This document shows, piece after piece, positions 14,313 through 62,942 of a stretch of DNA of 64,000 nt. Positions within the stretch are counted from its first letter, which is position 1; each line of letters begins with the position of its first letter. Under the pieces are notes generated by a model. The model saw only the letters and a list, made by a program, of their open reading frames with translations. It was not told the origin of the DNA and ran no database searches. Position numbers and translations under genes: made by a program. Source of the stretch: Limnomonas spitsbergensis (Eukaryota; Chlorophyta; Chlorophyceae; Chlamydomonadales); NCBI GenBank assembly GCA_037349105.1, contig JAYJMM010000123.1:4030001-4094000 (forward strand), read 5' to 3'.

Positions 14313-17300
14313 CCGCGGTACAAAGACCTGTCGCCGATGGAGAACCATCACGTGTCCGCGGCGCAGCTGCTCCTCAAGTCGGACGCAAACAACTTCCTCG
14401 GACATCTCCCCAAAGCGATGAGTGCCGCTTTTTATTTGGCACGGCGCTTCAGGTACGATTCAGCTACCTCGCACGCCCTATGGCAGGCTTTTCTTCATCT
14501 ACAATCCAGCCACGTTGCACGCCCTATGGCTGGCTGCTTAAGCTTCAATTCAGCCACGTTGCACGCCCTATGGCAGGCCGCTTCAGCTACAATTCAGCTA
14601 CATCGCACGCCCCATGGCGAGTTGCTTAAGCTACATATCAGCTACGTCACACACCCTGTGACTCGCTGCTTAAGCTACAATTCAGCTACATCGCACGTCC
14701 TATGGCAGGCTGCTTCAGCTACAATTCAGCCAGATTGCAAGCCTCTCGGCCCTGGTGGCCAGGTGCAGCAAGCCATGCTCAGTGTTTCTTTCTTCGAACA
14801 CAATGCCAACGTCAGCAGGCCGCCGCTTTGCCTTCAGAGGCCCAACTGGGACGAAATCTGGACCGGCCTACGGCCGGCGACCCAAGCAGCACGGCTGGCC
14901 ACACCTGCGGCCTCTGGCGTAAAGCCGGGTTGTAGCTGGTATGTACGGTAGTCGAGGAACACAAAAGTAAGCACTGGCCAATTGGCCATGCTGCTTGGGC
15001 CGGTCGATGCTTGATCCACAAGGTCCCAGGGATGCCCGCCCGGAGGCATGTCTAGCAAGGGTTGGCAAAAATTCAAGTTCATCGGACATCTAAGAAGGAG
15101 GACAGATATACGCTCCCCTATGGGCGTGCGGGTTGAGGGAACAACGCAGCTCATGGGGCGGAAGCCACATCCGCACCGTTACCATCGGACACCTTACTAA
15201 AGCGGTGTGTATTAGGGATTCAGGGCCAATGCTTTACAGTGCATGCTAGGGTTTAGGGTGCGTAATATGTCTGCTAGGGTTAAGGATGCACGCTAGGGTA
15301 TAGGGCTTAGAGTGCGTGCTAGGTTATCGGGGTCAGGGTGCATACCAAGGCCTAGGGTTTAGGGTGCATGTTGAGACCTAGGATTCAGGGTGCACGCTGA
15401 GACCTAGGGTTCGCGGTGCATGCTAGGGCCTAGGGTTTACGCTGTGTGCTGCAGCCTTCCAATAAGGACGCAAGGGTGGATGTGTTTGGTCCTTTGGAAT
15501 TGCAAACAATACTTTCAGATGAAGGAAAACCCTAGTTCAAGTGCAGGTTTTGATGGACAAAGTGCCCTTGGGGTATGTCTAACATTTCCTCGAAATTGAA
15601 GATGTCCAGGGTTGAGGGATTCATTATACCGTAAATGAAACTAATGATTGATTGTCAAGGCCAGTTTCAGTCGGGAATGGAAAGCTGTTGTCCCCCAATG
15701 TTTTGTCCCCCGAGGCTGGCATTTATGTTATATCGGTAATTGACTCAAAAATCATTAATGATGTATAAATGCTTCATAGTTGATTCACACTCGAGGGAAG
15801 GCGATTAAAACCTACGGTTAAGGGTTGACGCCTCCTGGTGAAGGCAAATACCGAGTCTCAAAATTATGACGACTGCCCCATGCTGTCTTGCCCCGCCCCA
15901 CGCCGCCCTGCCCCGCCCCGCCCTGCCTCACACCTCCCTGCCCAGCCCCACCCCAACCCGGCCTCCGCCTGCCCTGCCCCCCCTCCAGCACCGTGACATC
16001 ATCCGGGACAAGATCATCCAGCTGGAGCTCTGCACCGACATGCAGCAGCACTTCTCCACTTGCGGCCTGTTTGCGGCCAAGTCTGCGGCCGCCAAGGAGC
16101 AGCAACACCAGCAATGCCAGCAAAACCAGCAACAACAGCGTACATCAGGCAAGCCTGCGACAAACGTTAGCACATGCCCGAAACTACCGAAACATTGAGA
16201 AGTCTCGTGCACAAATGGTGTTCTTGCACCGTGATCGCACCCTCATCGCACTCATAGCTTTCGCGCACCTGCCTATTACCGTATCTGTTGTTTAACTTGA
16301 ATTAAAATATGTGATAAATTGCATGCTCATGTGATATCAAATGTATTATGAAGGGTGGAGCATGAAAGAATCCCAATCCGCGCAGCTTAACCCTGAACCC
16401 TAAACCCTGAACCCGTGACCCTACAACCTTGACGTCAACCCTTAACCCTTAAATATAAACCCTGGACCCTAAACCCTTTACTTACCTGTTCCTGACACGT
16501 GTGCCATGCGCAGCTGTCGCACAACACGAGGCGCCTGACTCTGCACCCAGGGCATGTCCAGCAGCAAATCAGGCAAGGCCAAGGGTGAGGGGTTAAGCGA
16601 TGCAATCCCGAAACCCTACGACTCTCCATCCATGGCGTGCCCAGCAGGAAAGCAGGCACGGCCCAGGGTTTAGGGTTAAGCGATGCAATCCCTAAACCCT
16701 GCCTTTCCACCCAATGCGTGTCCAGCAGCAAAGCAGGCAAGGTAGCAAGGCCATGTTTGTGAACGCATGATATAATGTTTCAGGGTCTAGGGTGATTCTC
16801 CACACAAGGCGTGTCCAGCAGCAAAGCAGGCAAGGTCCAGGCCGATAAGGACTCAAATCAGGGTTTAGGGCCAAAAACATTTCAAAAAAAACAAAAAAAC
16901 TTGAGCGATGCAAACCCTAAACCCTGAAGGGCATGTATCCTGAACACAGCAGACAAGGCCCTGCTTTAGAAGGACTCAAATTAGGGTTTGGGGCCCTAAC
17001 CAGTAAGGGCCTTAACCGTTAACCCTTCATCTTTAACCTTACACCCCTTCATCTTTAACCTTAAACCCTACGCTATGCAGGAGAGGCCCTATGTAAGAAG
17101 GCCTAAGATTTGGGTTTAGGGTTGCATGATGCAAACCTTAAACCCTAGAACATCAGCAATGCAGGCATGCTCAGTTTGAGAGGACTCGAATTAGGGTTGA
17201 GGGTTGAGCGATGCGGAACTCTCACCCCCTAAACCCCAAACAAGGCAGGCAATACCCTGCGTGTGAACGAATGAAATATATATGGGTTCAGGGTCTAGTA

Positions 17301-20300
17301 ATAGTAACCTAGTGTTAAGGTTGTATGTTAAGGTCTAGGGTTGAGGTCTAGGGTTAAGGTCCAGGGTGTAGATTTACGATTTAGGGTTCAAATCCAGGGT
17401 GGAGGTTTCACTACATCTAGGGTCTAGGGTTTAATATTAAGGTTTCAAGTTTAGGGTTTAAGGTTAAAACTAACTTAGGGTTTGACAGGGCTTGGGCTCC
17501 ATCTATGCAGGTCTAGGGTTTAGAGTTCAAGTTTAGGGCTCAAGTTTAAAGCTCAAGTTAAGGGCTCAACCTGCGCAGCCTCCAAAGCAAGGTCTCCTCG
17601 TCACTCTTCATGAAGTGCGCGTTCCAACTGATGTCTCTCAACCTCTGGGCACCATGGTGTAACAGTTGTATTCAGATGCTGAGCTCGGCCCATCGCATAA
17701 TACCATGTTTGTATTTTTCTTGAGAAAGATGGCAGACCCATGTCCTTTCCCTTACCCTTTCATGCCTTTTGGCAGGTGGCACGAGTGGTTATTTTCTTTC
17801 TTTCCTTTGGGCAGATGAGTGGCTGCAGATGTCCTTTTTCCCTCCTTTCCTTTTGACAGGTGGCCGAGGGTCCGTCCTTTCCCTCCCTTTCTTTTGGGCA
17901 TATATATGCCAGAGGTTCTTTCCCTTCCTTTCCGTTCCGTTGGGCAGATGAGTGGCCGAGGGCCATTCCTTCCCTCTCCGTCAGGCAGATGGCGCCTAAG
18001 TGCGCCGACATCACGCCCTGCTGCAATCGCGACACGTTTCCCCCCTCCCTTCTTGGTGTGCAGGTTCAGCATTACAGCCGCAGCCGCCTGGGCTCCGTAT
18101 GATGCAACTCGGACTTCACCCAGGAAGTGCACCGGCTATCCACGCACAATCTGGGATCCGGGGTTCGCGGCTACAGCGAGGATCAGGGTCGGCACCAGAA
18201 CGACCGCACGCTGAAACAGGGTCGGATGGGCGATACCAGGGGCATGCAGGCGCTGGATCGGTCGGTCCAGGGCAAGGAAAGCCAGGTGCCGATAGTGCCG
18301 AAGGTGTGGGAGAGGGACCGCATGCGACGAGCTCCGCGCCCGACACACAGCCGAAAGTGGGGGATGAGGGGCCAAAGGCGACGAGCTCCGCGCACGACAC
18401 CCAGCAGTTGCGGACTTCTCCGGACAGGTGGGCGTTGGGCGGGAAGGCGATAAGTGTCAGAGAAAGAAAGAGACTACGCCCCGTGGGGGCGTGAGAGTTA
18501 AGGAAACAGCGCAGCCTGGGCCGATAAGTGTCATAAGTTAAGCTTCGCAGGTTGGCACTGTTCCGGTGCTGGTTCCGGAGTCAGGCGGGTCCGGCGCGTT
18601 GTGCGGCTACTCGACTACTGTTCGCAAAATTCGGATACGCCTGATGTTCCTGACGACAGCCGTTGCAAGGGGCGGGGGGATCCCGAAGCTGAAGTGTCGT
18701 TGGCTTACCTCGTTGCAATGGACAGACAGGCATAATTATCTTTTATCATGCACAGGCAGTGTAGGGACGAGAGGGCACCGCAACCGCTGAACTGAATGAC
18801 ACCAGCCAGCGAGATTATGATTTTAGATTTGTTGCATTTTTCGAGCTTATTTGAAATGTTGACGACGACAACTTCTCCTTTTGGCAAGTTCCCTCTCATC
18901 AGCGGGGGCGTTTCAGTCAGCACACGCTGCCAACTTTTCGAAGGTTCCCTATTAAGACTCTTGGGGCGGGGCAAAGAAATAGGTATAAAGAAGCCAGTAA
19001 CCTGAAGAAAATACCCTGAACCCTAAACCCTGACTCCCCTCGCATGCCTTCAGGCCATCGTCGTCGCCGGTGCTGTCCTTGGCCTCCAGGATGCCGGATG
19101 CCAACAAGACCTATGCCCCGCAAAACCCCGCTGCGCCAGACGCGCCCCATGCACCGGCCGCGCCCCATGCACTGGGAGGGCCGCATGCAGCAGCAGCAGC
19201 GCGGCATACAGCGGCAGCTCCCCATGCTGCGACCGCACCGCATGCAACAGCTGCCCTCCATGCGCCAGCGGCAGCACCCCATGCGCGTGGGCACACATTT
19301 TTGCGCATTCCCTCGTCCAAATCTCGCTCCAAGCACAACAGCTTCTACGAGGGCATGCGTTTGCATGGCATCGACCTGGCCGATGAGGACGACCGCCTTC
19401 TTGTGTGGAAGGTGGACAGGGTGTGAACAGGGGCGGGTGTGAACCAGCTTGAAGTGTGAATACAGGATTTCGCTTGGGGCTCACACCTTGGCAAGATAAA
19501 ACTTCCCTTTCCTTTTGAAAAATTGGCCGCGAGATCCCTCCCTTTCCATTCCTCGCTTCAGATGGCGCTTAAGTGCGCGGACCTCAGCCACCTGGCCAGC
19601 GCGGAGCGGGTGCATTGCAAGTGGGTGCAACTGTTGGAGGAGGAGGTAAGCGGGGTTCAGGGTTTAGGGCTTGGGGGATAAACCAGGGTAGCACAATCCG
19701 GCTTCACCTGTGCGGTATCGTGCTACCTTGGTGGTACAATCCAGCTAATCCTGTGCCCTATCGTGATACCTTGTGTTGTGCCATATCGTGTTAGCTTGGT
19801 AGTTCAATCTGGCAAAACATGAGCACCAGCCCGAGGGCTGACACCCGGGAGGAAGGGGTAACATGAGGATCAGAGTGTGCCTCTTGCGGCCCTGCAAGTC
19901 CTAAATCATAGACAGTTTGGCGTTCCAGGGGGTTCCCTGTTCAGCTAGCAGGCAACGGCTACTTGGGCGATGTTCCTAATAGCTCTCTGGCTACATCAGT
20001 GTTCCCTGGAGGCGAAGCACAATGCCTGAAGCATCCCAGGGTGCTGCTGCGCGTGAGGCTGTACAGATGTAAACTGATGTACAGTGTATCGTGTTGTGGG
20101 GATATTATAAGGAGACACTGGCGAGAGCGTACAAGGCAGCAGGGCTGTTAGCGTTGGATGACATAAATTATGTGATGTGCCGTATCATGCTACCTTGGTA
20201 ATATAATACGGCCTATCCTATGCCATATCATGGTGTATAATGTTAGCTAGGTGGTACGATCCGGCTCAACATGTGCTGTAAGTAGTGTTCCGTATCAGAT

Positions 20301-22716
20301 ACAGCACTGCTTATCAAACAAAGTCTACCTCACCAGCATGCACCTAGGCAACAATGAATGCACACATTGCAGGATTCTTGTGCCGCTCGCCCCTCGAAAC
20401 ATGGTATGTGGTAACGGCGCGGACGCGGCCTCAGCCCATGCCGCACTGCTTTCTTAACCCTCGCGCCCCTGCGGGGCGTTGTTATATTTTTCTATTTATC
20501 TGAATCATGGTGAAACCACAGATTTGTCGGTTGGTGTTGCCCGTGTTTCGTCTGCTGTCTTTGTTGCTGGCGGTTTTGTTTCTTCTTGGGTGTCTGTATC
20601 GGTTTTCGTTTTCTGGTCTCCTCCCGCTTCGCTCTACCTGGCCCTTTCGCAAAAGGCTATGGATGGTTGTCAACTTTGTCACAACAACAGATGGAACAGA
20701 AAGCGACGTCCCACGCTTCGGCCGAATGGGCGGGGCTTCCTCAACCCATGCTTCAGGGAGTATTTATTTATTTACGATGGGGCGGATATTTTAAATGACT
20801 CATTTGTTTACGATGGAACGATTTTATTTGTTTCGTTTTTGATTCATTTTTTTACGATGGAACAAATTTATTTATTCATTTATCTATTTACGATGCAACG
20901 TATCATCCCGCCCATATGCCCTTAGCCCTGAACTCCCCCATCTTGAAATTCTATACCCTATCCTGGAACCCTTGAATCCTGAACTCCCTGAATTCCAAAC
21001 CCTAACCATAAACCCTTGATCCCCACTTTCAGATGTTCCGTCAAGGTGACATGGAGAGGACGCGTGGCTACCCTATCTCACCACTCATGGACCGCACCAA
21101 GGAGGGCATTACAAAGAGCCAGCCCGGGGTGAGCGAGGCTGAACCCAAAACCCTAAACCCTAAACCTCAAGAGCCAGCCTGGGGTGAGCAAGGCTGAACT
21201 CTAAACCCTTAACCTCAAGAGCCAGCCCGGGGTCGGCGAGGCTGAACCCAAAATCCTTGACCTCAAGAGCTAGCCTGGGGTGAGCGAGGCTGATCTCCTA
21301 ACCCTAAACCTCAAGAGCCAGCCTGGGGTGAGCGAGGCTGAACCTGTTTGTGGCCAGTCATGCTGCTTTGGCCACTACTCATAGGCCGGTCCAGATCGGG
21401 TCTCAAGGGATCCCGCGGGAAAATCCCAATGTGGACGGATGAAAGCGCAAAAAATTATGCGGTCGAGAGAAGCAAGGGTGGACGGCGGAGAGAGAGGAGC
21501 GGAAAGGGAGGGGAGAGTATAATTTTTTTGTATCAGTACTGTACTGCGGTATCCTTACTGTACCGTTTGACCGTACCGTATTTCCGTACCGGGTAAGCCT
21601 GCTACTTACCAGTAACACAAACTAACACCTCTGCTGTCGTCTGCCGCAGTTCTTCACGGTCATCGTCATGCCCCTGTTCGCCAGCTTCGCCGCGGCTCTG
21701 CCCAGTGTAAAGCCGCTTCTCGCACAGGTTTGTAGCAACCACGAGTTTTTTCTGGCACCGGTTCCTAGCAACCAGAAGTCATGGATGTGCACCACTACCC
21801 GCGTTTCCATTTTCGCGACTCAGCTACTTATCAGCTACTCTCCGGCCGCTGGCCAGCGGCCTAATTCGTGGCCAGCCTTGTTGCTTTGGTCACCGGTTGC
21901 AAGCTGGTCCAGGTTTGGTCCCAATCAGACCTTAAACGGCTGTGCCGGACGGCCTGCCGAAGTTGGACTTGGAGCCGAAAAAGGAAACACCGAGTCCACT
22001 ACCACTCCGGGGGGACAAGGGTCATTCTTCAAGCCCCTCGTGCAGCAATCTGGCCATATCATGGTCTAGGGATTGTAGATTGAAGAATACAAGCACGTTT
22101 GAGCGACATTCCTGTATATAACCTTATATAGCTGAAGCTACCGAAACAAAAAGAGTGAGAGAGAAACCTGTCAGACGGCGGTACTGGCGCGGATGGTAAC
22201 GGCGCGGATGTGGCTAAGGACCCAAGCTGCGCTGTTTCCTTAATCTCCACGGCTTATTAGGGCGTAGCTTTCTTTCTCTCTTTCAGTCAGACGCCAAGGA
22301 TATCCTCTCGGCCCATCTGTCCCCAGGTCCAGAGCAACCACGAGTTTTTGATGTGCCAGATGTCCACCGGCAACAGCGCCTCGGCTGCAGCTTCAAGGAC
22401 CAGTTGTTCAGCAGCTCCACACTCTGCAGCCGCGACCGTGGCCAAATCCCCAACCGCGATGATGAAAAGCTTTTCGATGGCGTCTAGGGCCAGCTCGGCG
22501 ATTGTGGCGCCAAGGACTCTGTCAGATACGGTCGCCGGTTTTCGACCGAACGGCGATGCTGCTTACGCTCCTGCCGCCAGAGCGTCTGCCAGAGCAACTG
22601 CCGCCACCAGGTCCAGCAAAGCCGGAGCACCTGCTGTTTTAAATTGGCCGTTGAACGACGAGGGAGGGGAAAAGGGGGAATTGGGACTTGATATTGCATT
22701 GAAAGAATACAGTTGA
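14313..22716 (+). CDS. 3',5'-cyclic nucleotide phosphodiesterase, class I (C-terminal two-thirds)
   Basis: Seven exons encode class I PDE catalytic blocks in order. 14,313-14,414: SPMENHHVSAAQ and NNFLGHLPK. 15,989-about 16,130: RDKIIQLELCTDMQQHF, with the conserved TDM aspartate. 19,054-19,411: Ala/His-rich insert, then LADEDDRLLVWK. 19,562-19,645: MALKCADLSH, with the metal-binding Asp. 21,033-21,128: MFRQGDMERTRGYPISPLMD..TKSQPG. 21,650-21,727: FFTVIVMPLFASF. 22,327-22,716: VQSNHEF plus a Ser/Ala-rich tail ending in TGA. Exons 3-7 join in phase 0. Exon 1 to 2 needs a GC donor (AAA|GCGATG); this gives the same 18-residue F-to-LATDM spacing as animal PDE4. The exon 2/3 junction is unresolved. 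The upstream HNxxHAxD and HDxxH exons were not found, so the gene is partial or 5'-broken. It would hydrolyse cAMP and/or cGMP; substrate specificity cannot be told. Confidence 0.8.
14455..14755 (+). repeat. About 45-bp tandem array after PDE exon 1
   Basis: Six diverged units of (A/C)TTCAGCTACAATTCAGC(T/C)A, CGTTGCACGCCCTATGG and CAGGCTGCTT. The array starts immediately after CGCTTCAGGTACGATTCAGC at 14,445-14,464 and contains CGCTTCAGCTACAATTCAGC copies. It also resembles the CAGCTACATATCAGCTACA end of dispersed element A, from which it may have grown. Confidence 0.7.
14782..14980 (-). repeat. Dispersed element A copy, nearly complete
   Basis: Left end CAGTGTTTCTTTCTTCG at 14,779-14,795, right end AACACAAAAGTAAGCACTGG near 14,980. 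In between are CCCAACTGGGACGAAATCTG, GGACCGGCCTACGGCCGGCG and GGTTGTAGCTGGTATGTACG, in the order of a reversed element A. Confidence 0.7.
15110..15165 (-). repeat. Dispersed repeat C (GCCCC..GGGGCG..TTAAGGAA)
   Basis: CCCTATGGGCGTGCGGGTTG and GGGAACAACGCAGC match the short repeat seen best at 63,300-63,372 and 18,465-18,515. Confidence 0.5.
15225..15450 (+). repeat. Telomere-like degenerate tandem repeat
   Basis: About seven units of 30-35 bp built on (T/C)TAGGGTTTAGGGTGCATGC. Lies in the intron between PDE exons 1 and 2, with the G-rich strand as the sense strand. Confidence 0.75.
16370..17570 (+). repeat. Intronic telomere-like block with about 120-bp repeats
   Basis: Mixture of CCCTAAACCCTGAACCC and TTTAGGGTT motifs. 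At 16,540-16,990 four diverged units of about 120 bp share TGTCCAGCAGCAAAGCAGGC, AAGGCC and GCGATGCAATCCC(T/G)AAACC. The segment 17,280-17,570 is almost pure GGTCTAGGGTTAAGG-like sequence. No gene within; it belongs to the PDE intron between 16.1 and 19.05 kb. Confidence 0.75.
17755..18030 (+). pseudogene. Decoy acceptors and partial copy of PDE exon 4
   Basis: At 17,986-18,020 CAGGCAG|ATGGCGCCTAAG and TGCGCCGACATCA closely copy the start of the real exon at 19,562 (CTTCAG|ATGGCGCTTAAG, TGCGCGGACCTCA), giving MAPKCADI in place of MALKCADL. It is preceded by four more pyrimidine-tract plus (G)CAG|(A/G)TG(A/G)(G)TGGC units, at about 17,773, 17,813, 17,860 and 17,947. The copy lies upstream of exon 3, not in the intron directly before exon 4, so it was moved or duplicated with the intron 3' end. 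Confidence 0.7.
18031..18460 (+). other. Open GC-rich stretch, possible extra PDE exon
   Basis: Several frames stay open for 110-160 codons without recognisable motifs (for example one with HRLSTHNLGSGVRGYSEDQG). It follows a TGTGCAG acceptor-like site at 18,058-18,064. It could be a linker exon that would solve the unmatched phase between PDE exons 2 and 3, or noncoding DNA. I cannot choose. Confidence 0.25.
18465..18520 (+). repeat. Dispersed repeat C copy
   Basis: AGAAAGAAAGAGACTACGCC, CCGTGGGGGCGTGAGAGTTA and AGGAAACAGCGCAGC match 63,300-63,372 almost base for base. Confidence 0.65.
19685..19810 (+). repeat. Dispersed hairpin element copies
   Basis: GGTAGCACAATCCGGCTTCA, CCTGTGCGGTATCGTGCTACC and two further diverged units (GGTGGTACAATCCAGCTAAT, then TGTGCCATATCG). 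Ends GGTAGCAC and GTGCTACC form an inverted repeat. Located just inside the intron after PDE exon 4. Confidence 0.7.
20165..20300 (+). repeat. Dispersed hairpin element copies, diverged
   Basis: TGTGCCGTATCATGCTACCT, TAATACGGCCTATCCTATGCC and GTGGTACGATCCGGCTCAAC repeat the elements seen at 6,340 and 19,685. Confidence 0.6.
20450..20900 (+). repeat. Repeat C copies and TTTACGATGGAAC-rich AT tract
   Basis: Two repeat C remnants (CTTAACCCTCGCGCCCCTGC at 20,452 and GGGGCTTCCTCAACCCATGC at 20,733) bracket a T-rich stretch. From 20,760 on, TTTACGATGG(A/G)(A/G)C occurs four times between T/A-rich segments. Open frames here are compositional; no gene is recognised. Part of the PDE intron. Confidence 0.5.
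21129..21345 (+). repeat. Tandem copies of PDE exon 5 end plus donor site
   Basis: The real exon end and donor (AAGAGCCAGCCCGGG|GTGAGC) at 21,114-21,134 is followed by four further copies of AAGAGC(C/T)AGCC(T/C)GGG|GT(G/C)(A/G)GC, with GT at about 21,184, 21,232, 21,280 and 21,328. The first spacing is 55 bp, the others 48 bp. Each unit ends in GAGGCTGAACCC-type and telomere-like bases. Using any downstream donor would shift the frame, since all offsets leave a remainder of 1 modulo 3. Confidence 0.9.
21340..21430 (+). repeat. Dispersed element A fragment
   Basis: GGCCAGTCATGCTGCTTTGG, CCACTACTCATAGGCCGGTC and CAGATCGGGTCTCAAGGGAT are the element A core; both ends are missing. Confidence 0.6.
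21728..21780 (+). repeat. Exon-start copy at the donor of PDE intron 6
   Basis: Immediately after exon 6, CAG|GTTTGTAGCAACCACGAG followed by T's repeats the start of the next exon, CAG|GTCCAGAGCAACCACGAG followed by T's at 22,324. A second AGCAACCA follows at 21,767. The intron is thus flanked by a direct repeat containing AG|GT. Confidence 0.75.
21803..21998 (+). repeat. Dispersed element A copy, complete
   Basis: Runs from TTTCCATTTTCGCGACTCAG, CTACTTATCAGCTACTC, through GGCCAGCCTTGTTGCTTTGG and AGGTTTGGTCCCAATCAGAC, to GGACTTGGAGCCGAAAAAGG, AAACACCGAG. Ends are inverted relative to each other. Confidence 0.75.
22215..22290 (-). repeat. Dispersed repeat C copy next to PDE exon 7 acceptor
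   Basis: AGCTGCGCTGTTTCCTTAAT and GGGCGTAGCTTTCTTTCTCT are the reverse complement of repeat C. Its pyrimidine-rich half now forms part of the tract before the last PDE exon. Confidence 0.6.
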
Positions 22717-23326
22717 CACAATGGCTTTCTTGCTCACACGTAGTTTTGGTTGTTAAACAACCCTATGTGTAGCTACGTACACATGTTAGATATCCGATTT
22801 CAGAGCTATTATGTTATCATGTCGGTGTCTCCTTATAATCGTAAGGCTTTTGTCGCGGTTGATGCTTTGAATAATCTATAAAGCGCAGCCGGCTAGCGTT
22901 TTACGCTAGAAATTAATTGCAACAACGGAGAAATGAGCTCGCAATCCCACTTCGAAAATGCGTCAATGCCCATACTCCAACTGAATTCGGTTAGCAATCC
23001 CTTTCCGTTGCCTTCGTTTCAGTAAGTCACTCAGGTATTTTGAGTCCCCTACAGCTTACCGGCTTGGTTCGCTGCTGTCGCATGTGTCCTCAGACTCAAG
23101 CCAGGTGCAAGAACCACGAGTTCCACCAAACACTTATGTGCGGGTTCGTTCAAGATTCTGCATGGTCAGAAAACTTTTTTATTTAATGAACAAGAGGAAT
23201 GTAGACATTAAGATAACCTCTGTTTCGCCAACGACCCGCACGTCCGCCTGATCCACATTTGGGGGGACTTTGCATGACCAGGTCGAGTCGGTCGCCAATT
23301 TAAGTTCCTGTGAAGTTTTGTGAAAT
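22717..23326. other. 3' flank of PDE gene, no gene seen
   Basis: AT-richer sequence after the PDE stop. Probably the 3' UTR and intergenic DNA; no TGTAA was found within the first 600 bp. Confidence 0.4.
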
Positions 23327-24480
23327 TTTTACAGTCCATCAGAGCATCACATTTGATGCAGGCATGGGACATGTGCCAGTAAACCGGTATAGGCACTTAA
23401 TACACTAGGACAGAAAGCGTAAACCAGTGACCCCCCTGGGCAAGCAACTGGCACACAATCACGACAATGGCATGGGAATGAACCCCATACCGTAGTGCAG
23501 AAGACAAGCCCCAGTCATAAAACATGACGTGGGTGCAAAAGAGTTCGATTGAGCCCCGCCTGGAGAATTAGGGGGGAGACGGGAGATTTGGCAAAGTTTT
23601 GAGATGATTCTCTCTTTTCATGATACACTGAAAGATAAAGAACCAAATTTCTTCCAGAACACAGATGAAGAAACCTCTGCATTAAGTTTGCCCCACATTC
23701 CATTTGTGCACCGTTTCATGGCCTCATCCTCATCATCTAGGAAATTATGGAAAGTAAGGCTAAATTGAAACGAAGGTCTGTGTTGACGGGCAGTAAATCA
23801 TGTGAAGCTCATCCTCCCGACATTTAAGATTGCAACATCTACAAATCCTCTCGCTACGAGGCACACAAGGTTTCTCGAAGCGCCCCGTCTCGATGTTCAG
23901 CCAATGCGACCCCATCCGATACCGGGCTACAGCGAAAATAATATTAGGCTTGCCCAAATAATTGTACCAGAAAGTCTCCTTCACATCATGCTAAATTTGG
24001 AACCACTTAGAGAACGTAAACAACTTGAACCCCGAGCAATCTGAGTCAGGAGTAGCACGTACTGTCAGGGCCATATGTGGCATATCCCTGTAAATTTTGG
24101 AAAGCCACTGATCCCTAGCTGAACTCAGAATGAACTCCATATCCAAAGAGAATTTGGCTGGCTGCAGGAGTCAATAAATCAATCCCCATTTCCGACATCT
24201 CCGTTATGGGCCTTCACCTCATGGAATTCGACTAATTTTCCTTGGGACGCCATGAGCTAGAGTTGGCCCACGATATGCTGGAGGAGGTCTCTGTGCTTGT
24301 GTTTGGTAGGTGAGAGACATGGGGGGTCGGATAGCTTTGCGGATTTGGTACAAGGAGGTAGCGCTGTGAACAGCTATTTTTGTCTGTTCTATCAATAGGG
24401 CACCATAGATCCCTACCAGCTCAGCTCTGTTTATGGTGTTCGTGGCACCTTCCCCAGCCGAGTTAATGGTGATGTCTAAA
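23327..24480 (-). pseudogene. Decayed LINE 3' half (RNase H, zinc knuckle, 3' UTR)
   Basis: Read leftwards. RNase H remnant at about 24,470-24,300 (GEGATNTINRAELVGIYGAL, with the catalytic Glu kept and the usual TDS changed to HSA). Then a terminal Cys/His motif at 23,984-23,760 (RYRMGSHWLNIETGRF..VPRSERICRCC..EDELHMIYCPS). Then a 3' UTR-like segment at 23,560-23,327 that matches 42,390-42,605 over about 215 bp and ends near CTGTAAAAATTTC. This order is typical of a non-LTR element with RNase H. Confidence 0.75.
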
Positions 24481-53900: not shown

Positions 53901-55049
53901 CCTACAGGGACCTCTGGGACAGGGTTTAGAACCCTTAACCCTCAACCCTACAGGGACCTCTGGGACGGGGTTTAGAACCCTTAACCCTCATCCCTACAGG
54001 GACCTCTGGGACGGGGTTTAGAACCCTTAACCCTCAACCCTACATGAACCTGTGGGACAGGGTTAAGAACCTTAACCCTCAACCCTACATGAACCTGTGG
54101 GACAGGGTTTAGAACCCTGGACCCTACAGGGACCTGCGGGACAGGGTTTAGAACCCTTAACTCTCAACCCTACAGGAACCTGGGGGACATAGGCCGTCCA
54201 ATCTGCATTTGTTTTCTTGATTCGTAGCCTCCCTCTCTCTGCCTCTACCTTGAATGACCTGTTTGAATCATGGTGCACAAAGCTCAGTTCTCTGCCTTGC
54301 CGCGTACGTCGCGTTTGGCTGCCCGCTGACCGGAGCTGCGCTGTACTCGTTGACAGAGTTGCCCGCGTACGAACCTTGCCCGCCCACACCCGGCCCCACC
54401 ATTGCCCCATTTCCGACCGACCTTACCCTCCCCCCCCCGGGCCTCGATTCTGACAATCCCGTCGCGAGGTGCCAGCCAGGGCGCGCGGCACCATGCTCAC
54501 CCGCCAAGAAGAAAGCGCAAAAAGGCGTCCACGCCCTCAGCCCTTGACCTGAACCCCAGCTGATCTTCTCTGAACTCGAAGCCGGAAGCCTTAAGATGGC
54601 AAGCTGCCCGCGCTCCCTGAGCAGTCCTCGGCAATTTAACCCAAAGCCTGAAACCCTCCCACGTCATCCTAAACCCTTGACCTGCGTACTCTATTCGAAA
54701 TTCTCTAGCATCCCCTTAAAGGGCATGTGGCCAGTTTTCCCGAGCAGTCCTTAGCCCCTTAAACTTCAGTCCTAGATGCTGAACCCTGAACCCTGAACCC
54801 ATGCTCCAGACGATCCTCTCCGGAGTTGCTTACGAAGGTATGCGGCCAGAGTTCCCAGACACAGCCATGGCCGCCTACGTTCGGCTCGCAATGCGGTGTT
54901 GGGCGGCCGAGCCCTCGATGCGCCCTTCTTTCGCCGAGGTGATTCTGGATCTCAAGGCCATGCAGGATAGCGAGGCGGCGGCGGCAGCGGCCGCTGCTGA
55001 TGCGGCATTGGGGAGCGCTCCCTCGGGCTTTTCGGGCGTCCTTGCTTGA
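35997..55049 (+). CDS. GAF-like domain / TKL-type protein kinase, 14 exons
   Basis: Exons: 35,997-36,275; 37,240-37,412; 38,457-38,608; 39,762-39,809; 42,731-43,080; 43,483-43,599; 44,312-44,980; 46,911-47,060; 47,854-47,996; 49,321-49,433; 50,146-50,294; 52,036-52,173; 53,512-53,628; 54,810-55,049. All phases agree, total 2,838 nt, 945 residues. Intron 2 has a GC donor (CACAG|GCAAGG). Residues about 1-370 look like one or two GAF-like sensor domains (GRSVLGTLLIAQ, LPSVLKVAMDAVPFYLL, LWVLVAPIVIQ). Then a Gly/Ser linker. The kinase domain runs from GAYGSVYVAMWRGQVVAVKV through SLSHPNVV, VIIMEYCDLGPLHHYV, FIHCDLKPENILL, KVSDFGMSDL, VTHVAPEIV, DVYSYGIIMYEV and CWAAEPSMRPSFAEV. All catalytic residues (K, HxD, DFG) are present, so it should be active on Ser/Thr (or dual). 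Start is the first in-frame ATG of exon 1; 36,072 is an alternative. Confidence 0.88.
36365..36440 (+). pseudogene. Decayed partial copy of TKL kinase exon 1
   Basis: CTCAGCCTCCTCTTGGTCCT and GCCCACTGTGCTTAAGGTCG copy exon 1 at 36,208-36,250 (CTCAGCCCCTCCTTCGTCCT, GCCGTCTGTGCTCAAGGTTG). Lies 90 bp into intron 1, same orientation. Frame is lost. Confidence 0.75.
37449..37640 (+). mobile_element. Dispersed element A, best reference copy (MITE-like)
   Basis: Left end CAGTGTTTCTTTTTGGGGGA, CTCAGCTACGTATCAGCTAC; then GGCCAGCCATGCTGCTGGGG, AGGCCGGTCCAGGTATGGTC, CCAATCGGGCCTTCAGCGGC, CGCGGGGCGGCCTGCTGATG; right end TCGTAGCTGAAGAAAGAAAC, ACTGG. The ends form an inverted repeat, about 190 bp in all, with no ORF. 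About 18 copies lie in this window, both orientations, nearly all in introns. Confidence 0.8.
37735..37885 (-). repeat. Dispersed element A copy, degraded
   Basis: CAGGCTGGATGGGAACCAAA, CCTGGGCGGATGGTCGAAGC and GAAGTGTAGCTGAAGCACC, reversed. Confidence 0.5.
37970..38110 (+). repeat. About 31-bp AT-rich tandem repeat
   Basis: Four copies of GATTTTGTTTATTTAATTGT, GATGCAT in kinase intron 2; one AT-expanded copy at 38,050. Confidence 0.85.
38265..38425 (+). repeat. About 130-bp direct repeat before exon 3
   Basis: GGCCACATCATATGTTAGTC, CCAATGATTGCCCTGGT..AAAGCTG is repeated as GGCCACATCATGTATTAGTC, CCAATGATGACCCGGTCCTC, ACAAAGCTG at 38,390-38,436, the second copy leading into the exon 3 acceptor. 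Confidence 0.65.
38609..38725 (+). repeat. Copies of exon 3 end plus donor
   Basis: Real junction GACACCTGGTTCGAAT|GTGAGTGA at 38,593-38,616. Copies: GACACTTGGTTTGAAA|GTGAGAGA (GT at 38,659, 50 bp on) and GAACTCTTGGTTCCAAC|GTGTCC (GT near 38,717). Both keep flanking CAGC(C/T) and GCTGAG context. Confidence 0.8.
38790..38972 (-). repeat. Dispersed element A copy, reversed
   Basis: GCAGGCCCGATTGGGCCCAA, ACCTGGACCGGCCTACAGCT, GTGGCTGGCCACAAATGGGG and ACATTTAGCTGGGTCACGAA, GAAAGGAACACCG. Confidence 0.7.
39165..39352 (-). repeat. Dispersed element A copy, reversed
   Basis: AGGCCCGATTGGGACCAAAC, CTAGTCCGACCTACGCCTGA, CAAAGCAGCATGGCTGGCAG, then ACATGTAGCTGAGTCACGAA, ATAAGGAACG. Together with the next copy it fills much of kinase intron 3. 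Confidence 0.7.
39510..39605 (+). repeat. Dispersed element A fragment
   Basis: GTGCAGCAAGCCCTGTGGCT, TGGGTCACCGGCTGAAGGCC, GGTC only; ends missing. Confidence 0.45.
40075..41145 (+). repeat. 47-bp minisatellite in TKL kinase intron 4
   Basis: About 22 copies of a 47-bp unit, GGGCTGATTAGAAGCTGGGC, AGGAATAGTTATGTTGGACG, GAGGTAG, with single-base variants (AGAAGC/GGAAGC, GGACGG/GGACAG). Each unit contains GGACGGAG|GTAGGGGCTGAT, which resembles the exon 4 end and donor GAACGAAG|GTGAGTGATCGG. The array may have grown from that junction, but the match is weak. Confidence 0.95.
41340..41475 (+). repeat. Dispersed element A copy
   Basis: TGCATTACAGCTGCACCTCA, GCTACACGGCCTGGCATGTT, GGCAGCTGGCCGCGAGCTGG, TCTTTTCGGGGTCCCAG. 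Confidence 0.5.
41545..42375 (+). repeat. CCTG-rich array with four decoy copies of the exon 5 acceptor
   Basis: Tetranucleotide (CCTG/CCTA)n array carrying four copies of GCAG|ATCGACCCC, with cut points at 41,844, 42,080, 42,183 and 42,294. The real acceptor is GCAG|ATCGACCCCTGG at 42,730. The last three decoys share GACCCCTGGTCCTGCCTGCC and are each followed by an AATAGCACTGCCACACAC or AAGAGCACTGCCACACAC tail. All four offsets would shift the frame if used. Open frames rich in Leu-Pro-Ala-Cys are by-products of the tetranucleotide. Confidence 0.9.
42385..42605 (-). repeat. Solo LINE 3' end
   Basis: Matches 23,327-23,560 over about 215 bp (for example ATCACATTTGATGCATGGGA, GTAAACCG.., CCAGTGACCCCCCTGGGCAA, GAACATGACGTGGGTGCAAA). 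On the - strand it ends at GGACTGTAAAAAC. It lies between the decoy array and the real exon 5 acceptor, so it was inserted after the array formed or separated the array from its source. Confidence 0.75.
43145..43205 (+). pseudogene. Decayed partial copy of TKL kinase exon 5
   Basis: CTCATGGGCGGCCTCAAGCT, ACTGTTGATGACAGAGATCA copies exon 5 at 43,015-43,058 (CTGATGGGCGGGCATAAGCT, GCTGTTTGTGACGGAGATTA). Translates to LMGGLKLLLMTEI beside the real LMGGHKLLFVTEI. Lies 65 bp inside intron 5. Confidence 0.85.
43640..44310 (+). other. Kinase intron 6
   Basis: Weak copies of the exon 6 donor region (GGCGACAAAG|GTAGTGCACG) may be present at about 43,790-43,810 (TGCAACCAAGGTGGTGCGTG). The last 150 bp hold CCCTAGACC / CCCTGCACG telomere-like bases in front of the acceptor at 44,311. 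Nothing else is recognised. Confidence 0.4.
44981..45475 (+). repeat. Donor-site array of TKL kinase intron 7
   Basis: The real junction GGGCAG|GTGGGTGATG at 44,975-44,990 is the first member of a tandem array with a unit of 37-38 bp: AGGTGGGTGATGCAGGGCTC, AGGTTTTGGGGGGGAGT. About 13 copies run to 45,455. Every unit re-creates AG|GTGGGT, so the intron begins with some 13 potential donors. Translation through the first units gives the WGGVGG-type peptides. Confidence 0.92.
45476..45620 (+). repeat. Diverged continuation of the donor array
   Basis: AGCAGGGGATGATGTTTGGC occurs twice in tandem at 45,492-45,532, then GGCAGGTGCGTGATGCAGGT. Older remnants of the same expansion. Confidence 0.6.
45625..45815 (+). 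repeat. Dispersed element A copy, complete
   Basis: CATTTTCCGTGACTCAGCTA, CATATCAGCTAAATTCCAGC, CTGCCAGCCATGCTGCTTTA, CCAGTCCAGGTTTGGTCCCA, and the right end AAGCCGGAAATAGAGACACT, AG. Confidence 0.75.
46020..46645. repeat. 69-bp VNTR in TKL kinase intron 7, open on both strands
   Basis: Nine copies of a 69-bp unit (CATCTCCTTCCTCAACCCTC, TTCACCTCCTCAATCATGGC, CACCTCTTGGACCCACTCTC, TGGCCCCTC). Because 69 is 3 x 23, long frames stay open on both strands: 208 codons forward and 341 codons reverse (45,831-46,856, with 23-residue EEVKRVEEGDGGAREWVQEV-type repeats). Base changes between units alter residues freely (E/Q, A/V, E/K), so there is no sign of protein constraint. Confidence 0.92.
46685..46830 (+). 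repeat. Dispersed element A copy, diverged
   Basis: CTACGAGTCAGGTTCACCAT, TTGGCCAGCCGATTCAGGTC, TGGTCTCAATCAAGCCTTTA, ACGGCTGCTGGGCAGTCTGC. Confidence 0.55.
47590..47853 (+). repeat. Acceptor array of TKL kinase intron 8
   Basis: Six tandem units of about 40 bp (AG|GTCCACACCGTTCACACTGA, TGCCCATCTAATACGCTT) with cut points at 47,610, 47,650, 47,690, 47,730, 47,773 and 47,813, spaced 40-43 bp. The seventh member is the real acceptor and exon start, CGCAG|GTCCACACTGTCCTC and ACCGATGTCATT at 47,853. The array therefore grew from, or into, the exon edge. Confidence 0.92.
48000..49320 (+). other. Kinase intron 9
   Basis: Holds a repeat C remnant (48,645-48,700, TGGCTTCCTTAATCCACGCC), an element A fragment (48,705-48,790, GGCCGTAGTGTAGCTGACTC) and a T-rich stretch. 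No junction copies were seen and no other gene. Confidence 0.5.
49607..49742 (-). repeat. Dispersed element A copy, short form
   Basis: CATTGTTTCTTTTTATGGCT at the left and CGAAAATAGAAACACTGG at the right form inverted ends. The interior (GCTGCCGAAGGCCCAATTAG, GACCAAACTT) lacks about 55 bp of the full element. Confidence 0.7.
50060..50145 (+). repeat. Decoy acceptors of TKL kinase intron 10
   Basis: CTCGCACAG|CTCCAACTGGTTTGACACG at about 50,092-50,120 copies the real junction CTCGCACAG|CTCCGACTGGTTTCGACGG at 50,137-50,164, 44 bp away. A further copy without the AG (TGCCACTGGTTTGACACGTC) lies at 50,060. The 44-bp offset would shift the frame. Confidence 0.88.
50440..50745 (+). repeat. 28-bp minisatellite in TKL kinase intron 11
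   Basis: Eleven copies of TTTCATCTACCAAGGGCATG, TCAAAAGG with few variants. The period is not a multiple of 3, which rotates the frame and produces the overlapping SKGFIYQGHV-type open frames. Confidence 0.95.
50890..52035 (+). repeat. Decoy acceptors of TKL kinase intron 11
   Basis: The exon 12 start AG|GTGAATGGCACCCACGG at 52,035 is preceded by six weaker or shorter copies with cut points at 50,914 and 50,934 (ACAG|GTGAATGGCACCCCCC), 51,029 (GGAG|GTGAACGCC), 51,675 (GCAG|GTGAATGGGACTCC), 51,829 (GGAG|GTGCATGACCC) and 51,927 (GAAG|GTGCATGGCATCC). The last three and the real one also share about 100 bp of upstream sequence (ATTGGATATACTGTATACCA, TTTTAT, C-rich tract), forming a long tandem repeat. 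Confidence 0.88.
51395..51605 (+). mobile_element. Possible tRNA-derived SINE
   Basis: TGGTGTCAGTCGCTTACAGC (A-box-like, about 51,418) and GGTCGCGAGTTCGATACC (B-box-like, 51,467-51,484) are spaced about 50 bp, as in the internal pol III promoter of a tRNA. They are followed by 120 bp of unrelated sequence and an A-rich tail. Pairing of the tRNA acceptor stem is poor, so a working tRNA is unlikely. Confidence 0.45.
52174..52615 (+). repeat. Donor copies of TKL kinase intron 12
   Basis: The real junction CGTGACGCAAAAGCTG|GTGGGTGC at 52,158-52,181 is repeated, sometimes with more exon sequence (CCAGAGATCGTGACGCAAAA), at GT positions 52,268, 52,346, 52,431, 52,509 and 52,609. Copies alternate between close (AAAAGCTG|GTGGGTGC) and diverged (CAGAGGCTG|GTGGG) forms, so the duplicated block was probably about 165-175 bp with two junctions. 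Confidence 0.9.
52616..53410 (+). repeat. Telomere-like minisatellites in intron 12
   Basis: First about ten units of 34-35 bp (GTAGTGCTGGGTACAGGCTG, GATTAAGGGTTTAGG), then about six longer units of about 61 bp alternating GGGTACAGGCTGGGTTTAGG and GGGAAGCGGCTGGGTTTAGG. Sense strand is the G-rich strand. Confidence 0.92.
53413..53467 (+). pseudogene. Decayed copy of TKL kinase exon 13 start
   Basis: GCGTTCGACATGTCCTCTTA, CGGCATCATCATGTT mirrors exon 13 at 53,521-53,556 (GCCTGCGACGTGTACTCGTA, TGGCATCATCATGTA), giving AFDMSSYGIIMF then a stop where the real exon gives ACDVYSYGIIMY. It lies 45-100 bp before the true acceptor. Confidence 0.88.
53790..54190 (+). repeat. Exon 13 end copy and minisatellite grown from it
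   Basis: CATCATTGACGCCATGAGCT, ACTGGAACCTCTGGAACAGG, GTTT at 53,800-53,844 resembles the exon 13 end CATCATTGACACCATCAGCG, ACAAGAAGCTGCGGGACAAG|GTGCGG. Eight units of about 46-47 bp follow, each with GGGACCTCTGGGACAGG|GTTTAG and CCCTTAACCCTCAACCCTAC; the one near 54,128 even reads CTGCGGGACAGG|GTTT. Confidence 0.8.
54200..54800 (+). other. 3' part of kinase intron 13
   Basis: Open frames occur on both strands (97 codons + at 54,254) but without motifs or matching splice sites. The final 100 bp are telomere-like CCCTGAACC repeats leading into the acceptor at 54,809. Confidence 0.4.
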
Positions 55050-58620: not shown

Positions 58621-58624
58621 GCCG

Positions 58625-58690: not shown

Positions 58691-58699
58691 CGTTCCACG

Positions 58700-58760: not shown

Positions 58761-58799
58761 ACACGGTTCAAAATCCCCTGGTCTCAAGCCTGACCATAT

Positions 58800-59640: not shown

Positions 59641-59689
59641 CAGCATTCAAACAGCTCAACTACAAGCATCAGGCCAGTGCAAAGCAGAC

Positions 59690-59995: not shown

Positions 59996-60042
59996 CACTC
60001 TGCTATAAGGTTTAATATAATATGTGTTATCCAGTGTAAAGA

Positions 60043-60315
60043 GTGCTTGAGCACGAGCAAATAAGCGCAATGAGCTGGATGCCAACAGGGCCCTGGAGCC
60101 CCATCGCAGTTGATCGCCGGGTGAGTCCTAAACGCAATCAGTGTAAGGCTGGAAAATTGAAGGTTCCTCTGCCATTGAAAAGTGAAGGAAAGTTGCATGA
60201 GATCATCGAAGATTGCATCTTAACCTTTGAGAACTACCTCAAGAGTAACAACATTCCCCATGCGGAATGGCCTGTGCATGGCATGCATCTCAGCAGTTGG
60301 TTACCGGCTTTGTGA
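60043..60315 (+). CDS. Uncharacterised small open frame
   Basis: About 90 codons (ISAMSWMPTGPWSPIAVDRR, KLHEIIEDCILTFENYLKSN). No motif recognised. It lies convergent to the BUB3 3' end with 260 bp between. Kept because its composition is protein-like; nothing else supports it. Confidence 0.25.
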   Translation: MLEHEQISAMSWMPTGPWSPIAVDRRVSPKRNQCKAGKLKVPLPLKSEGKLHEIIEDCILTFENYLKSNNIPHAEWPVHGMHLSSWLPAL

Positions 60316-60576
60316 CACAAGGTGCATCTTTAAACGCAAATGGATCCCAAGAGATCTCAAGTGCAGCACGCACAGCAAAAACGAACGCTGTGACAAAATA
60401 CTCTTGCCATGCGGTCTCCGTAAATAACACGAGCCCTGCACGAAAGAGACCCCAAAATATCTGTAGCAAAACGTGCATGCGCTGAAAAATAGTGCAATGA
60501 GAAAATCCCCCCCAAATATCCCAGGAGTGTGGAAGGACATGATAGATGAGTCAGCGCACAGCCAAGAGGAGCCTCT

Positions 60577-62942
60577 TCATTGCTTCCGTTGCTTTGGCCT
60601 GACCTCCACATCCTGCATCCGCCGGATGTATATATCGTCCCCGGCGTGCGCCACATCGCCTCGCTCGTGGGTGTAACTCGACGCCACGGCCAACATGGAC
60701 CCGTCGCGGCTGAAGGCCAGCGCCGAAACCGTGTTTGGGTACCTTTGCGTCCAGTGCGATGGGGAACAGGGTCAGGGACACAACATGCAAATTAATTACT
60801 GGACGCACTCATGGGCCACAGCATGACAGGCTGCTTGCAAGCAGCCGATTTGACATATCGTGCTTGGGTAGTACCCGTGTATGCGTTCAGATCCTACATC
60901 CAGGATCACGGTCTAAATTTAAAATTGGTTGACCTGTATCGCACCCGCACACTCTCCCACTGCCTTCCTGAAAGGAGCATGTGGTGCTGCCCCTCGAGTT
61001 CATCCCCCCCTCCCCCTTCTGTTGCAGCCAAGCATTCAGATTCAAATGCCCTGCTTTCTAGTCATCTTCAACTTCCGCTGTACCTCCGGTTCACTCTGCC
61101 TGGCCCCTCCGAAACATCTGTTGGGTGGATGCATAAATACGTTGTCGCTTCAGCAACAACTCACTTGCCGCTCTGCTCAAAGTCTTTTCTACCGGCACCA
61201 TCACAGGGGTCGAGCCCCCCCCCCCCATCTTCCCCCCATGTCGTGATCAAGCAAGCTTCTCACACTTACTTCAATCGCGCTCGCTTCCTATATGCTGCTG
61301 TTAGCCGGAATACAGGTACAGTGCACACATAAACTGACGGGGAAGGCCAGCCCCACTCACTTGTCTATCTGGAAAAGACGCTTCTTGTTGGCCCCGTCCC
61401 ACAGGTTGATCACGCCGTCACCGCCGCCTGTTGCGAAGGTTCCGTACCCCGAGTGGAATGCGATGGCGTGCACCGGGTAGGCCACATCAACACCATTCTC
61501 CTGCCGCCTATGACACTGCGCACATGGAAATGCGAGGTCGGACAAATGGAGGGGTAAATATAAGCACTAGGCTGTCCACGTTGACACTGATCTCCTGCCA
61601 CCCACGGCAACGCAGGGCTGGCAAACACACTTGGCAAGGCAGTTAGAATCATGATAGTGACAAGGTATACAAAATAAGCAAGCGGCGGTTCAAGGCATAT
61701 GAAAGGTCGACATTGTTCTCCTTCCGCCCATGGCACTCCAAGGTCAGCGTCACACATAGCAAAATGACGTGATACACTGACAGTGTGGGGGGGTACGAGA
61801 GGGGGGCGGAAGGGTACAGGACAGTACGGGAGGTAACAAGGTGGTGGCAAGAGTCTTTGGGGCTGAAGCGGGAGTGGTGGAGGGGGGGGGGTAGCGGGGT
61901 GGTGAAGGGAAGGGTACAGTGAAATACCATCATCAGGCAGCTTGGTACTCTGCAACATTTTTTCTTCGGCATGAAACTTGGCTTGCCAAGGGCCACGTGG
62001 ACACCCCTCTCTTGCCCCCCAATTACCCTGCGGGGGCCATGAGACGGCCAGCGTTACAACATGAATGGGTGGACACACGTTCCCCTGCTGCCTATATGAC
62101 TCTGCGGGGTCAGCGGCATAATCGGCAGCATGCGTTCAAACAAACTTCAGGGTCTCTTACGCTGCCCACAGCAGGCAGACTTGCCTGGAGCCTCAGGCAG
62201 AGCGGCAGCTAAACCTAGGGCAAGGTCACCCTCAACCATGCAAGGCCAACCCCAGCCATGCAAGGCCAGCCTGCAAAGCCAAGACCAACCATGCAAGGCA
62301 GAGGCTTCAACAAATCTTGTCATGCCCCCAGGGTGTAGGGTTAAGAGCTGACCTAACCATCCACCAGTATTAATTATGATGTGACTCAGCTACACGTCAG
62401 CTACACTCGGGCCTCGAGCATGAGGCCCCATTGCGCCCAGCCATGCGGCCTTGGCCACCAGTCGTAGGTCGGTCCAGGTTTGGTCCCAATCGGGTATTTT
62501 GCGGCCGCGGGGCGGCCTGCTGAAGGTGGACTTGTAGCTGAAAAAGGAACAATGCCCTCCACCAGAAACCCAACCAAAGATCTGTGCCAAAGGTCTGTGT
62601 GCCTGCCTTGAAGGCGTACCTGGCCTGTGCCTCAGCTCCTACCGAGAGAGCCAACTTGTTGGCCAGTGCCTCAGGCCCCTGACCTATTTGCTATCGGTCT
62701 CTTGCCAGCATTTAGCCTTCTAAGGGATCGACCTCCTCTTGAGCCCGCTACACACCTTGAAGGCATACTTGTTGGCCTGCGCCTCGGGCCCCTGGTCGAT
62801 GTACTCCATGGCGACACGGCCCTCCACCGAGCCCAGCGCGTACCCCCGCCCGTCAGTGAAGCAGGCGATGCACCGTGTCTGGAATTTCAGAGAGCTCTCG
62901 CGCAGCTGGTCTGGCTGAGGGGGCGGCCCGCCGGGCACCAAC
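60577..62942 (-). CDS. BUB3: Mitotic checkpoint WD40 protein BUB3 (C-terminal three exons)
   Basis: Complement of exons 62,756-62,942; 61,361-61,515; 60,577-60,742. The phases agree (phase 0, then AA|G completing Lys). Exon one: [37 protein letters not shown] and KYAFK. Exon two: [20 protein letters not shown], then [20 protein letters not shown] and KKRLFQIDK. Exon three: [35 protein letters not shown], then RPKQRKQ and a TGA stop. This is the last part of the BUB3 beta-propeller, with the signature [11 protein letters not shown] and F-K-C-H-R blocks of animal and plant BUB3. BUB3 binds BUB1 and BUBR1/MAD3 at kinetochores in the spindle-assembly checkpoint. The 5' exons lie beyond the right edge. 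Both visible introns carry copies of their own junctions. Confidence 0.93.
61575..62112 (-). repeat. Decoy acceptors in BUB3 intron
   Basis: On the + strand the real junction reads CAACACCATTCTCCTGCCGC, CTATGACA|CTGCGCACATGG (61,488-61,526). Four diverged copies lie at 61,575-61,617, 61,706-61,750, 61,993-62,037 and 62,068-62,112, each with (C/T)T(C/G)TCCT(G/T)CC(G/A)CCCA.GGCA-like exon bases followed by CTGCG or similar. Confidence 0.75.
62380..62555 (+). repeat. Dispersed element A copy, complete
   Basis: TGACTCAGCTACACGTCAGC, CCCAGCCATGCGGCCTTGGC, GGTCCAGGTTTGGTCCCAAT, GCGGCCGCGGGGCGGCCTGC, TGAAGGTGGACTTGTAGCTG, AAAAAGGAACAATG. Confidence 0.75.
62597..62684 (-). repeat. Donor copies in BUB3 intron
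   Basis: Exon end and donor (+ strand) ACAC|CTTGAAGGCATACTTGTT, GGCCTGCGCCTCGGGCCCCT at 62,752-62,790. Copies: TGC|CTTGAAGGCGTACCTG, GCCTGTGCCTCAGCTCCT at 62,605-62,640, and AACTTGTTGGCCAGTGCCTC, AGGCCCCTG at 62,653-62,682. Confidence 0.8.

Follow-up and report, generated by a model that had tools for sequence, protein, structure and literature searches.

Introns of the snow alga Limnomonas spitsbergensis carry direct copies of the exon-intron junctions that bound them. We analysed these copies in a 64,000-nucleotide stretch of the genome (assembly GCA_037349105.1, contig JAYJMM010000123.1, positions 4,030,001 to 4,094,000; hereafter the window), which holds genes for a phosphodiesterase (PDE), a TKL kinase and a BUB3/RAE1-type protein, and in a separate 250-kb sample of the same genome. 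The copies are confirmed as a real feature of these introns. They are probably explained by frequent local tandem duplication that ignores exon borders and lengthens existing introns, and they appear to be an innocuous side effect, not a mechanism directed at splice sites. The analysis covers one genome and one assembly, with junctions defined by gene models built from sequence.

Introns carry copies of their own junctions

An earlier sequence-only reading of the window had reported that at least a dozen introns hold extra copies of their own splice junctions. Each claimed copy was aligned to its source and compared with 300 dinucleotide shuffles of the target. All 15 places named in that reading, together with two added here (at 14.19 and 50.89 kb), lie above chance. 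Sixteen of the 17 beat every shuffle (p ≤ 0.003) and the acceptor copies at 61.6-62.1 kb reach p ≤ 0.007, values that are uncorrected for the choice of targets, which were the regions pointed to by the reading.

The junction counts use a 30-mer probe of 20 exonic and 10 intronic bases, with a score of at least 13 taken as a copy, applied to gene models rebuilt beforehand. A direct copy is present in the own intron for 14 of 56 window junctions, compared with 3 of 978 pairings with other introns. The sample behaves alike, with 24/74 junctions against 16/1672 mismatched pairings. Inverted copies at this score are absent from all 130 junctions (0/56 in the window, 0/74 in the sample), and at a score of at least 12 three appear in the sample. 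Donors and acceptors are both affected, as had been claimed, with tandem duplication crossing exon-intron borders on either side. An early test restricted to exon edges (30 exonic nt, p < 0.05), which used slightly wrong PDE coordinates, detected copies at 7 of 29 acceptors (Fisher, 0.0004) and at 3 of 29 donors, which is not significant (Fisher, 0.27).

Genes differ in their share of copied junctions, from 9/28 in TKL, 9/18 in a SEC23-like gene of the sample, 3/6 in PDE and 2/4 in the BUB3/RAE1-type gene to 0/18 in the gene at 27-35 kb. The last had been proposed as an internal contrast devoid of copies. This holds for the main probe, and its intron interiors are poor in repeats (6% of interior 30-mers copied vs 44% in TKL), but a longer probe of 20 + 20 bases finds copies at 2/18 junctions, in matches that include only 3-4 exonic bases and are almost wholly intronic.

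Individual junctions illustrate the density of these copies. The acceptor of TKL exon 7 (42731) is preceded by AG-keeping copies at offsets -886, -650, -547 and -436, and an interspersed repeat in the spacer of TKL intron 6 would explain why this decoy appears spaced. In the SEC23-like gene, seven exon-head copies at near-regular spacing precede one acceptor, and a search with the Chlamydomonas eustigma protein reveals two extra exon-head stretches in another intron, upstream of the corresponding exon.

Borders are copied about as often as intron interiors

The sequence-only reading had further proposed that the arrays are seeded exactly on exon-intron boundaries, or are selected for there. 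Neither proposal is borne out. Across 64 introns, the mean copied share per intron is 0.281 for junction-spanning 30-mers and 0.248 for interior ones (0.337 per base), and the per-intron mean ratio of junction to interior copying is 1.13 (bootstrap 95% confidence interval 0.89-1.44). Border 30-mers are thus copied about as often as interior ones, and in the modelled introns the comparison of own-junction with random intronic 30-mers turned out against seeding. In the window, approximately 20-25% of junction-spanning 30-mers are copied in the intron, compared with 33% of interior ones (n = 1387). Interior repeat content and junction copies are correlated across introns (rho 0.58, with one sample intron in a repetitive predicted frame, dropped from later counts, included).

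Repeat boundaries agree with this picture. Repeat ends at most 3 nt from the junction are seen in only 4 of 41 cases. Their reach into the exon has a median of 29 nt (middle half 15-50 nt) and, as a fraction of unit length, is compatible with a uniform distribution (Kolmogorov-Smirnov p = 0.17, n = 25, with four values clipped at 1 where the permissive banded alignment had overrun). Copying fades within the exon, to 0-2% for window 30-mers beginning 80-90 nt inside, and affects 1 of 374 exon-interior 30-mers at least 40 nt from the edge, or 0 of 241, depending on the distance cut. The sample shows the same profile shape from border to exon, at a higher level and with a higher exon background. 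The excess at junctions is real only relative to exon interiors, where duplications are not tolerated. Copies inside the exon occur at 2 of 128 junctions, a scarcity expected if exons are protected. The gene models take the exon-side copy by construction, because inner sites would lengthen the exon.

It is therefore unlikely that junctions, with their AG|GT motifs and pyrimidine tracts, are preferred seeds of duplication from which introns grow mainly at their ends. Three window arrays do reach at most 17 nt into the exon (44.98, 47.85 and 50.1 kb) and the point estimate of the ratio lies slightly above 1, but the interval includes 1, the per-base interior share exceeds the junction share, few repeats end at the junction, and the repeat-poor gene at 27-35 kb is without junction copies by the main probe.

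Probable growth of existing introns by tandem duplication

The form of the copies points to tandem duplication. Of 134 examined junctions, 41 have a copy, and in 25 of these the nearest copy covers 80% or more of a tandem unit. Offsets of nearest copies have a median of 101 bp (middle half 56-163 bp). The copies are diverged, with a median identity of 0.78 (range 0.66 to 0.98). In five genes, introns next to an exon hold 36 fragments of that exon (score at least 18), distributed over 16 of 74 exon-intron sides, whereas 17 of 362 non-adjacent exon-intron pairs reach this score. Each of the 36 begins no more than 42 nt from the facing junction, and 28 begin no more than 15 nt from it. None spans a full exon; the longest comes from TKL exon 3 and corresponds to source bases 23-143 out of 160.

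We favour the following account. Many introns of this alga would very often undergo local tandem duplication of short segments, irrespective of where exon borders lie. A segment straddling a border would give the gene a second splice site and an exon stub, with the exon-side copy leaving the original exon intact. If splicing stays with that copy, the event would be near neutral, the intron would gain one unit and the spare junction would become intronic. Later slippage, point mutation and transposon insertion could then produce arrays, spaced decoys and decayed exon stubs. Border-straddling units would survive because the exon-side splice site stays intact. We infer that the duplications arise in replication or repair, that straddling ones are close to neutral and that splicing uses the exon-side copy. 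The earlier proposal that introns lengthen by tandem duplication across their borders, on donor and acceptor sides alike, is supported, and growth of existing introns is the main reading given that a signature of intron birth is found in one of 28 window introns.

Duplication confined to introns is not claimed. Local direct repeats are sparse in two stretches of the window that lie outside the modelled genes (20/264 and 8/219 30-mers vs 414/1326 in introns), and we refrain from the claim because this share ranges from 2% to 68% in sample gaps between predicted genes.

Several results weigh against this account. For 16 of the 41 junctions the nearest copy does not fill a tandem unit, and because of this these copies could have arisen by dispersed copying. 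Copies show no age gradient from the junction into the intron (14 groups negative, 10 positive, p = 0.54), and serial growth from the border is therefore not demonstrated. The idea of a conveyor belt, on which copies would be older the farther they lie from the junction, was likewise set aside as not shown; the best copy is also the nearest in 14 of 25 groups, where 8.6 are expected. The decay of copying into the exon predicted from unit lengths is slower past about 75 nt than that observed. In the sample, 9.4% of 961 exon-interior 30-mers match the adjacent intron, and 28% of 661 have a direct match within 600 bp, compared with 18/241 in the window. We tentatively attribute this background to repetitive or wrongly predicted exons. 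Outside the SEC23-like gene, the sample junctions in turn rest on a gene finder that, in its last round, found 11 of 25 known internal window exons exactly.

Splice sites within the copies

The 105 copies placed on 38 of 130 junctions retain the splice dinucleotide in 86 cases, which points to decoys with no sign of purging. On a site matrix the retained copies average 5.2, whereas true sites average 7.0 and random intronic GT or AG dinucleotides about -1; in 21 of the 86 the copy equals or outscores the true site. Within aligned copies, GT/AG columns match in 69 of 73 cases and the remaining columns up to 12 nt away in 611 of 718, a small excess that may arise because alignments had to cover the junction.

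These features could suggest functional decoys, kept by selection for roles such as splicing regulation or nonsense-mediated decay. We consider this quite improbable. Offsets are in frame for 27 of the 105 copies, not above the one third expected by chance, there is no excess of copies at junctions, and the spread of identities looks like decay.

Intron birth and assembly artefacts

In the tandem-duplication model of intron birth, as outlined in one account of it (PMC3443670), the surroundings of donor and acceptor are alike in register. One PDE intron (21728-22326) carries such a signature on its head side, beginning with a copy of the next exon head in register (19/25), where the null frequency of at least 15 in-register matches is 0.0026. 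It is possible, as judged from this match, that the intron was born by tandem duplication. A second, weaker copy of the same exon head occurs 33 bp further on.

That introns in general were made by duplication of an exonic AGGT segment, with the exon-edge copies as relics of birth, is nevertheless very improbable. The in-register signature is present on the head side in 1/28 window and 0/38 sample introns, and on the tail side in 0/28 and 1/38, and one sample intron with high out-of-register values on both sides (55 and 40) lies in the dropped repetitive frame. With a single window intron among 28, birth as a general explanation is not supported. An artefact of assembly or gene modelling is the least credible alternative, for although the assembly is built on PacBio continuous long reads (CLR), as outlined in the published genome description (PMC11228838), and junctions derive from DNA alone, the copies are too diverged to be simply duplicated reads, the TKL frame closes across 16 exons, and 15 of 50 junctions whose flanks align gap-free with a C. 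eustigma orthologue (at least 6/12 residues identical) have a copy.

Comparison with known systems

Intronic minisatellites share with these copies direct tandem units, variable period and copy number, and partial decay. The junction copies resemble them in being exclusively direct at the main threshold and mostly unit-filling (25/41, with 16/41 not). Unlike ordinary minisatellites, the units here often include coding exon and a working-looking splice site, which is the case at about a quarter to a third of the sampled junctions.

Introners are dispersed families inserted in many genes, in Micromonas and others. They likewise occur in algal introns and place splice sites within repeated DNA. 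The junction copies differ in matching their own intron and rarely others, and the same element was not found across many unrelated introns (3/978 and 16/1672 pairings). Competition between duplicated splice sites, with two or more copies of one site in cis, was reportedly studied by Reed and Maniatis in 1986. Those copies were made in the laboratory, whereas the present set is natural and genomic.

Intron gain by tandem genomic duplication, as summarised in its published account (PMC3443670), likewise puts copies of exon and splice site into an intron. That process creates an intron whose donor matches its acceptor in register, whereas here introns that already exist lengthen, and each copy resembles the border of its own intron. 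A PDE intron shows half of the signature of that kind, on its head side. Tandem exon duplication, which yields mutually exclusive exons, likewise duplicates exon and flanking intron and, as outlined in PMC6071210, concerns whole exons with both splice sites. Here only exon edges are copied, most of them out of frame, with 0/36 fragments covering a whole exon and 27/105 offsets in frame. At the level of titles and abstract openings, we found no description of splice-junction copies of this kind in the literature.

Implications for splicing

We raise tentatively, as a possibility somewhat short of even, that splice-site duplication is effectively neutral in this lineage. Straddling duplications would then be fixed about as often as intron-internal ones, and a large part of all junctions would have strong, nearly identical decoys no more than a few hundred bases away, yet splicing would find the exon-side copy. 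If true, fossil exon edges make up part of these introns, and the genome amounts to a natural collection of cis-competition experiments in which exon context, and not the splice site alone, decides the choice. If straddling is tolerated as freely as interior duplication, introns can lengthen at their ends without cost to the coding sequence, and the recognition of splice sites has to cope with strong decoys. Both consequences are directly testable because IsoSeq and RNA-seq data have been made for the species, as stated in the genome description (PMC11228838). This snow-alga genome offers an exceptionally suitable natural setting in which to study how cells recognise the correct splice site. 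Annotators should bear in mind that stubs resembling exons, next to genuine exons, can be remnants of duplication.

Gene models and sample

The window has a GC content of 53.6%; the published genome, as summarised in its description (PMC11228838), has 54.15% GC and a mean intron of 788 bp. Modelled window introns are GT-AG throughout, with a single exception, the GC-AG donor of TKL intron 4 at 37412/37413. Introns below 120 bp, which include TKL intron 1, are omitted from the counts.

The TKL protein has kinase domain matches, and its closest relative is C. eustigma g462 (63% identity over the best-aligned 39% of the query). The gene at 27-35 kb comprises 10 exons, of which exons 2-10 share one frame and exon 1 is uncertain, and shows 67% identity over 99% of the query to C. 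eustigma g460. The contigs bearing g462 and g460 are equally long, which suggests that this neighbourhood is conserved with C. eustigma. The PDE gene is incomplete, with four exons modelled. From 19562 onward its exons match PDEase_I and solved PDE4 structures, and those upstream are omitted from the counts, no in-frame join having been found by eye. The gene at 60.6-62.9 kb is also incomplete, with three exons modelled. It had been called BUB3. Its junction copies are confirmed, but solved structures of the mRNA export factor RAE1 match it better than yeast BUB3 does, and for this reason BUB3/RAE1-type is the safer name.

The sample consists of 200 kb of contig C123 and 50 kb of contig C101 and its genes were predicted by a small gene finder whose training set was the window genes. 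Introns were accepted when both exons had a coding score of at least 8 and a length of at least 60 nt and the intron measured 120-2500 bp. This retained 38 of 133 predicted introns and omitted 95. One further intron, in the repetitive predicted frame, was dropped from later counts, leaving 37 introns and 74 junctions; with it, 26/76 sample junctions have a copy. For the SEC23-like gene 10 exons were used, which are covered by C. eustigma P0062, and the orthologue supports its junctions.

Features and other repeats of the window

The copies and genes of the window are collected in Table 1.

Table 1. Junction copies, associated repeats and gene models, in window positions
Feature	Position	Strand	Details
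Copy of PDE exon head and acceptor	14191-14232	+	source 14311-14351, 30/41, p ≤ 0.003
Copy of acceptor and head of PDE exon at 19562	17957-18031	+	source 19530-19603, 55/72; in earlier stretch of gene
Tandem array, 48-bp unit, after PDE donor 21128/21129	21149-21344	+	exon tail and donor repeated
PDE intron with intron-birth-type signature	21728-22326	+	first 25 nt match next exon head in register, 19/25
Contrast gene (27-35 kb gene)	27354-34950	-	nearly without junction copies; the relative in C. eustigma bears the name PI3K/PI4K catalytic domain-containing
TKL kinase gene	35484-55049	+	16 exons, one open frame, 986 aa
Decayed copy of TKL exon 3 tail	36303-36460	+	source 36133-36280, 110/139
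Copy of TKL exon 5 end and donor	38643-38673	+	source 38593-38623, 26/31
Copies of acceptor and TKL exon 7 head	41841-42364	+	partly 103-bp array (42042-42364)
Interspersed repeat, most of spacer between TKL intron 6 array and acceptor	42369-42618	+	relatives at 23307-23570 and in sample
Copy of TKL exon 7 tail	43150-43223	+	source 43015-43090, 54/73
37-bp x 13.3 array, starting 2 nt inside TKL exon 9	44979-45468	+	units repeat donor
40-bp arrays reaching into TKL exon 11 acceptor (47854)	47573-47858	+	
44-bp tandem duplication across TKL exon 13 acceptor (50146)	50064-50158	+	
20-bp x 3 array resembling TKL exon 14 head	50890-50954	+	1.1 kb upstream of exon
Copies of acceptor and TKL exon 14 head, partly 101-bp units	51653-52025	+	end just short of true acceptor 52036
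Copies of TKL exon 14 tail and donor	52240-52620	+	offsets 94, 172, 257, 335, 435 from donor 52174; first 40/41
Copy of TKL exon 15 head region	53429-53482	+	source 53521-53573, 42/53
Copy of TKL exon 15 tail (53799-53840, 32/42), then 46-bp array	53799-54189	+	array units resemble exon 15 end
Diverged copies of acceptor and exon head, BUB3/RAE1-type gene	61560-62150	-	exon starts 61515; best 31/41 at 61991-62032; p ≤ 0.007
Copy of exon tail and donor, BUB3/RAE1-type gene	62641-62692	-	source 62754-62805, 40/51

A further array, at 14437-14772, extends from a PDE exon end. Judged by eye, the reading frame of the exon seems to remain open through it as far as a candidate donor close to 14772, so that the array may be a coding minisatellite. 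With the nearer donor, no in-frame join was obtained.

Interstitial telomere-like repeats pervade the introns and minisatellites, for example at 21149-21344, 52610-54189 and 63355-64000. When the 140 heptamers with the composition of TTTAGGG are ranked by frequency in 314 kb, its seven circular permutations take the first seven places (153-269 occurrences each vs a median of 37), and exact TTTAGGG/CCCTAAA occurs 41 times in 27.0 kb of window introns and is absent from 5.5 kb of exons. These repeats were rejected as a driver of junction copying, being present in 21 of 32 introns with junction copies vs 20 of 35 without (Fisher p = 0.62).

An element of approximately 180 bp resembling miniature inverted-repeat transposable elements lies at 62372-62552, with eight relatives at 14.8, 21.8, 29.1, 37.5, 38.8, 39.2, 45.6 and 63.0 kb. 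It occurs in both orientations, and 7 of the 9 window copies lie in modelled introns. The element forms a local cluster, with one match in the 200-kb and none in the 50-kb part of the sample (E ≤ 1e-8).

A run of thirteen consecutive predicted exons, each 81-99 nt long, lies at L023-L024 of sample A (+ strand, 146.2-156.2 kb). Every one of these exons codes for a single repeat of a VYxS...SGGA-like protein, and the neighbouring introns are not clearly alike.

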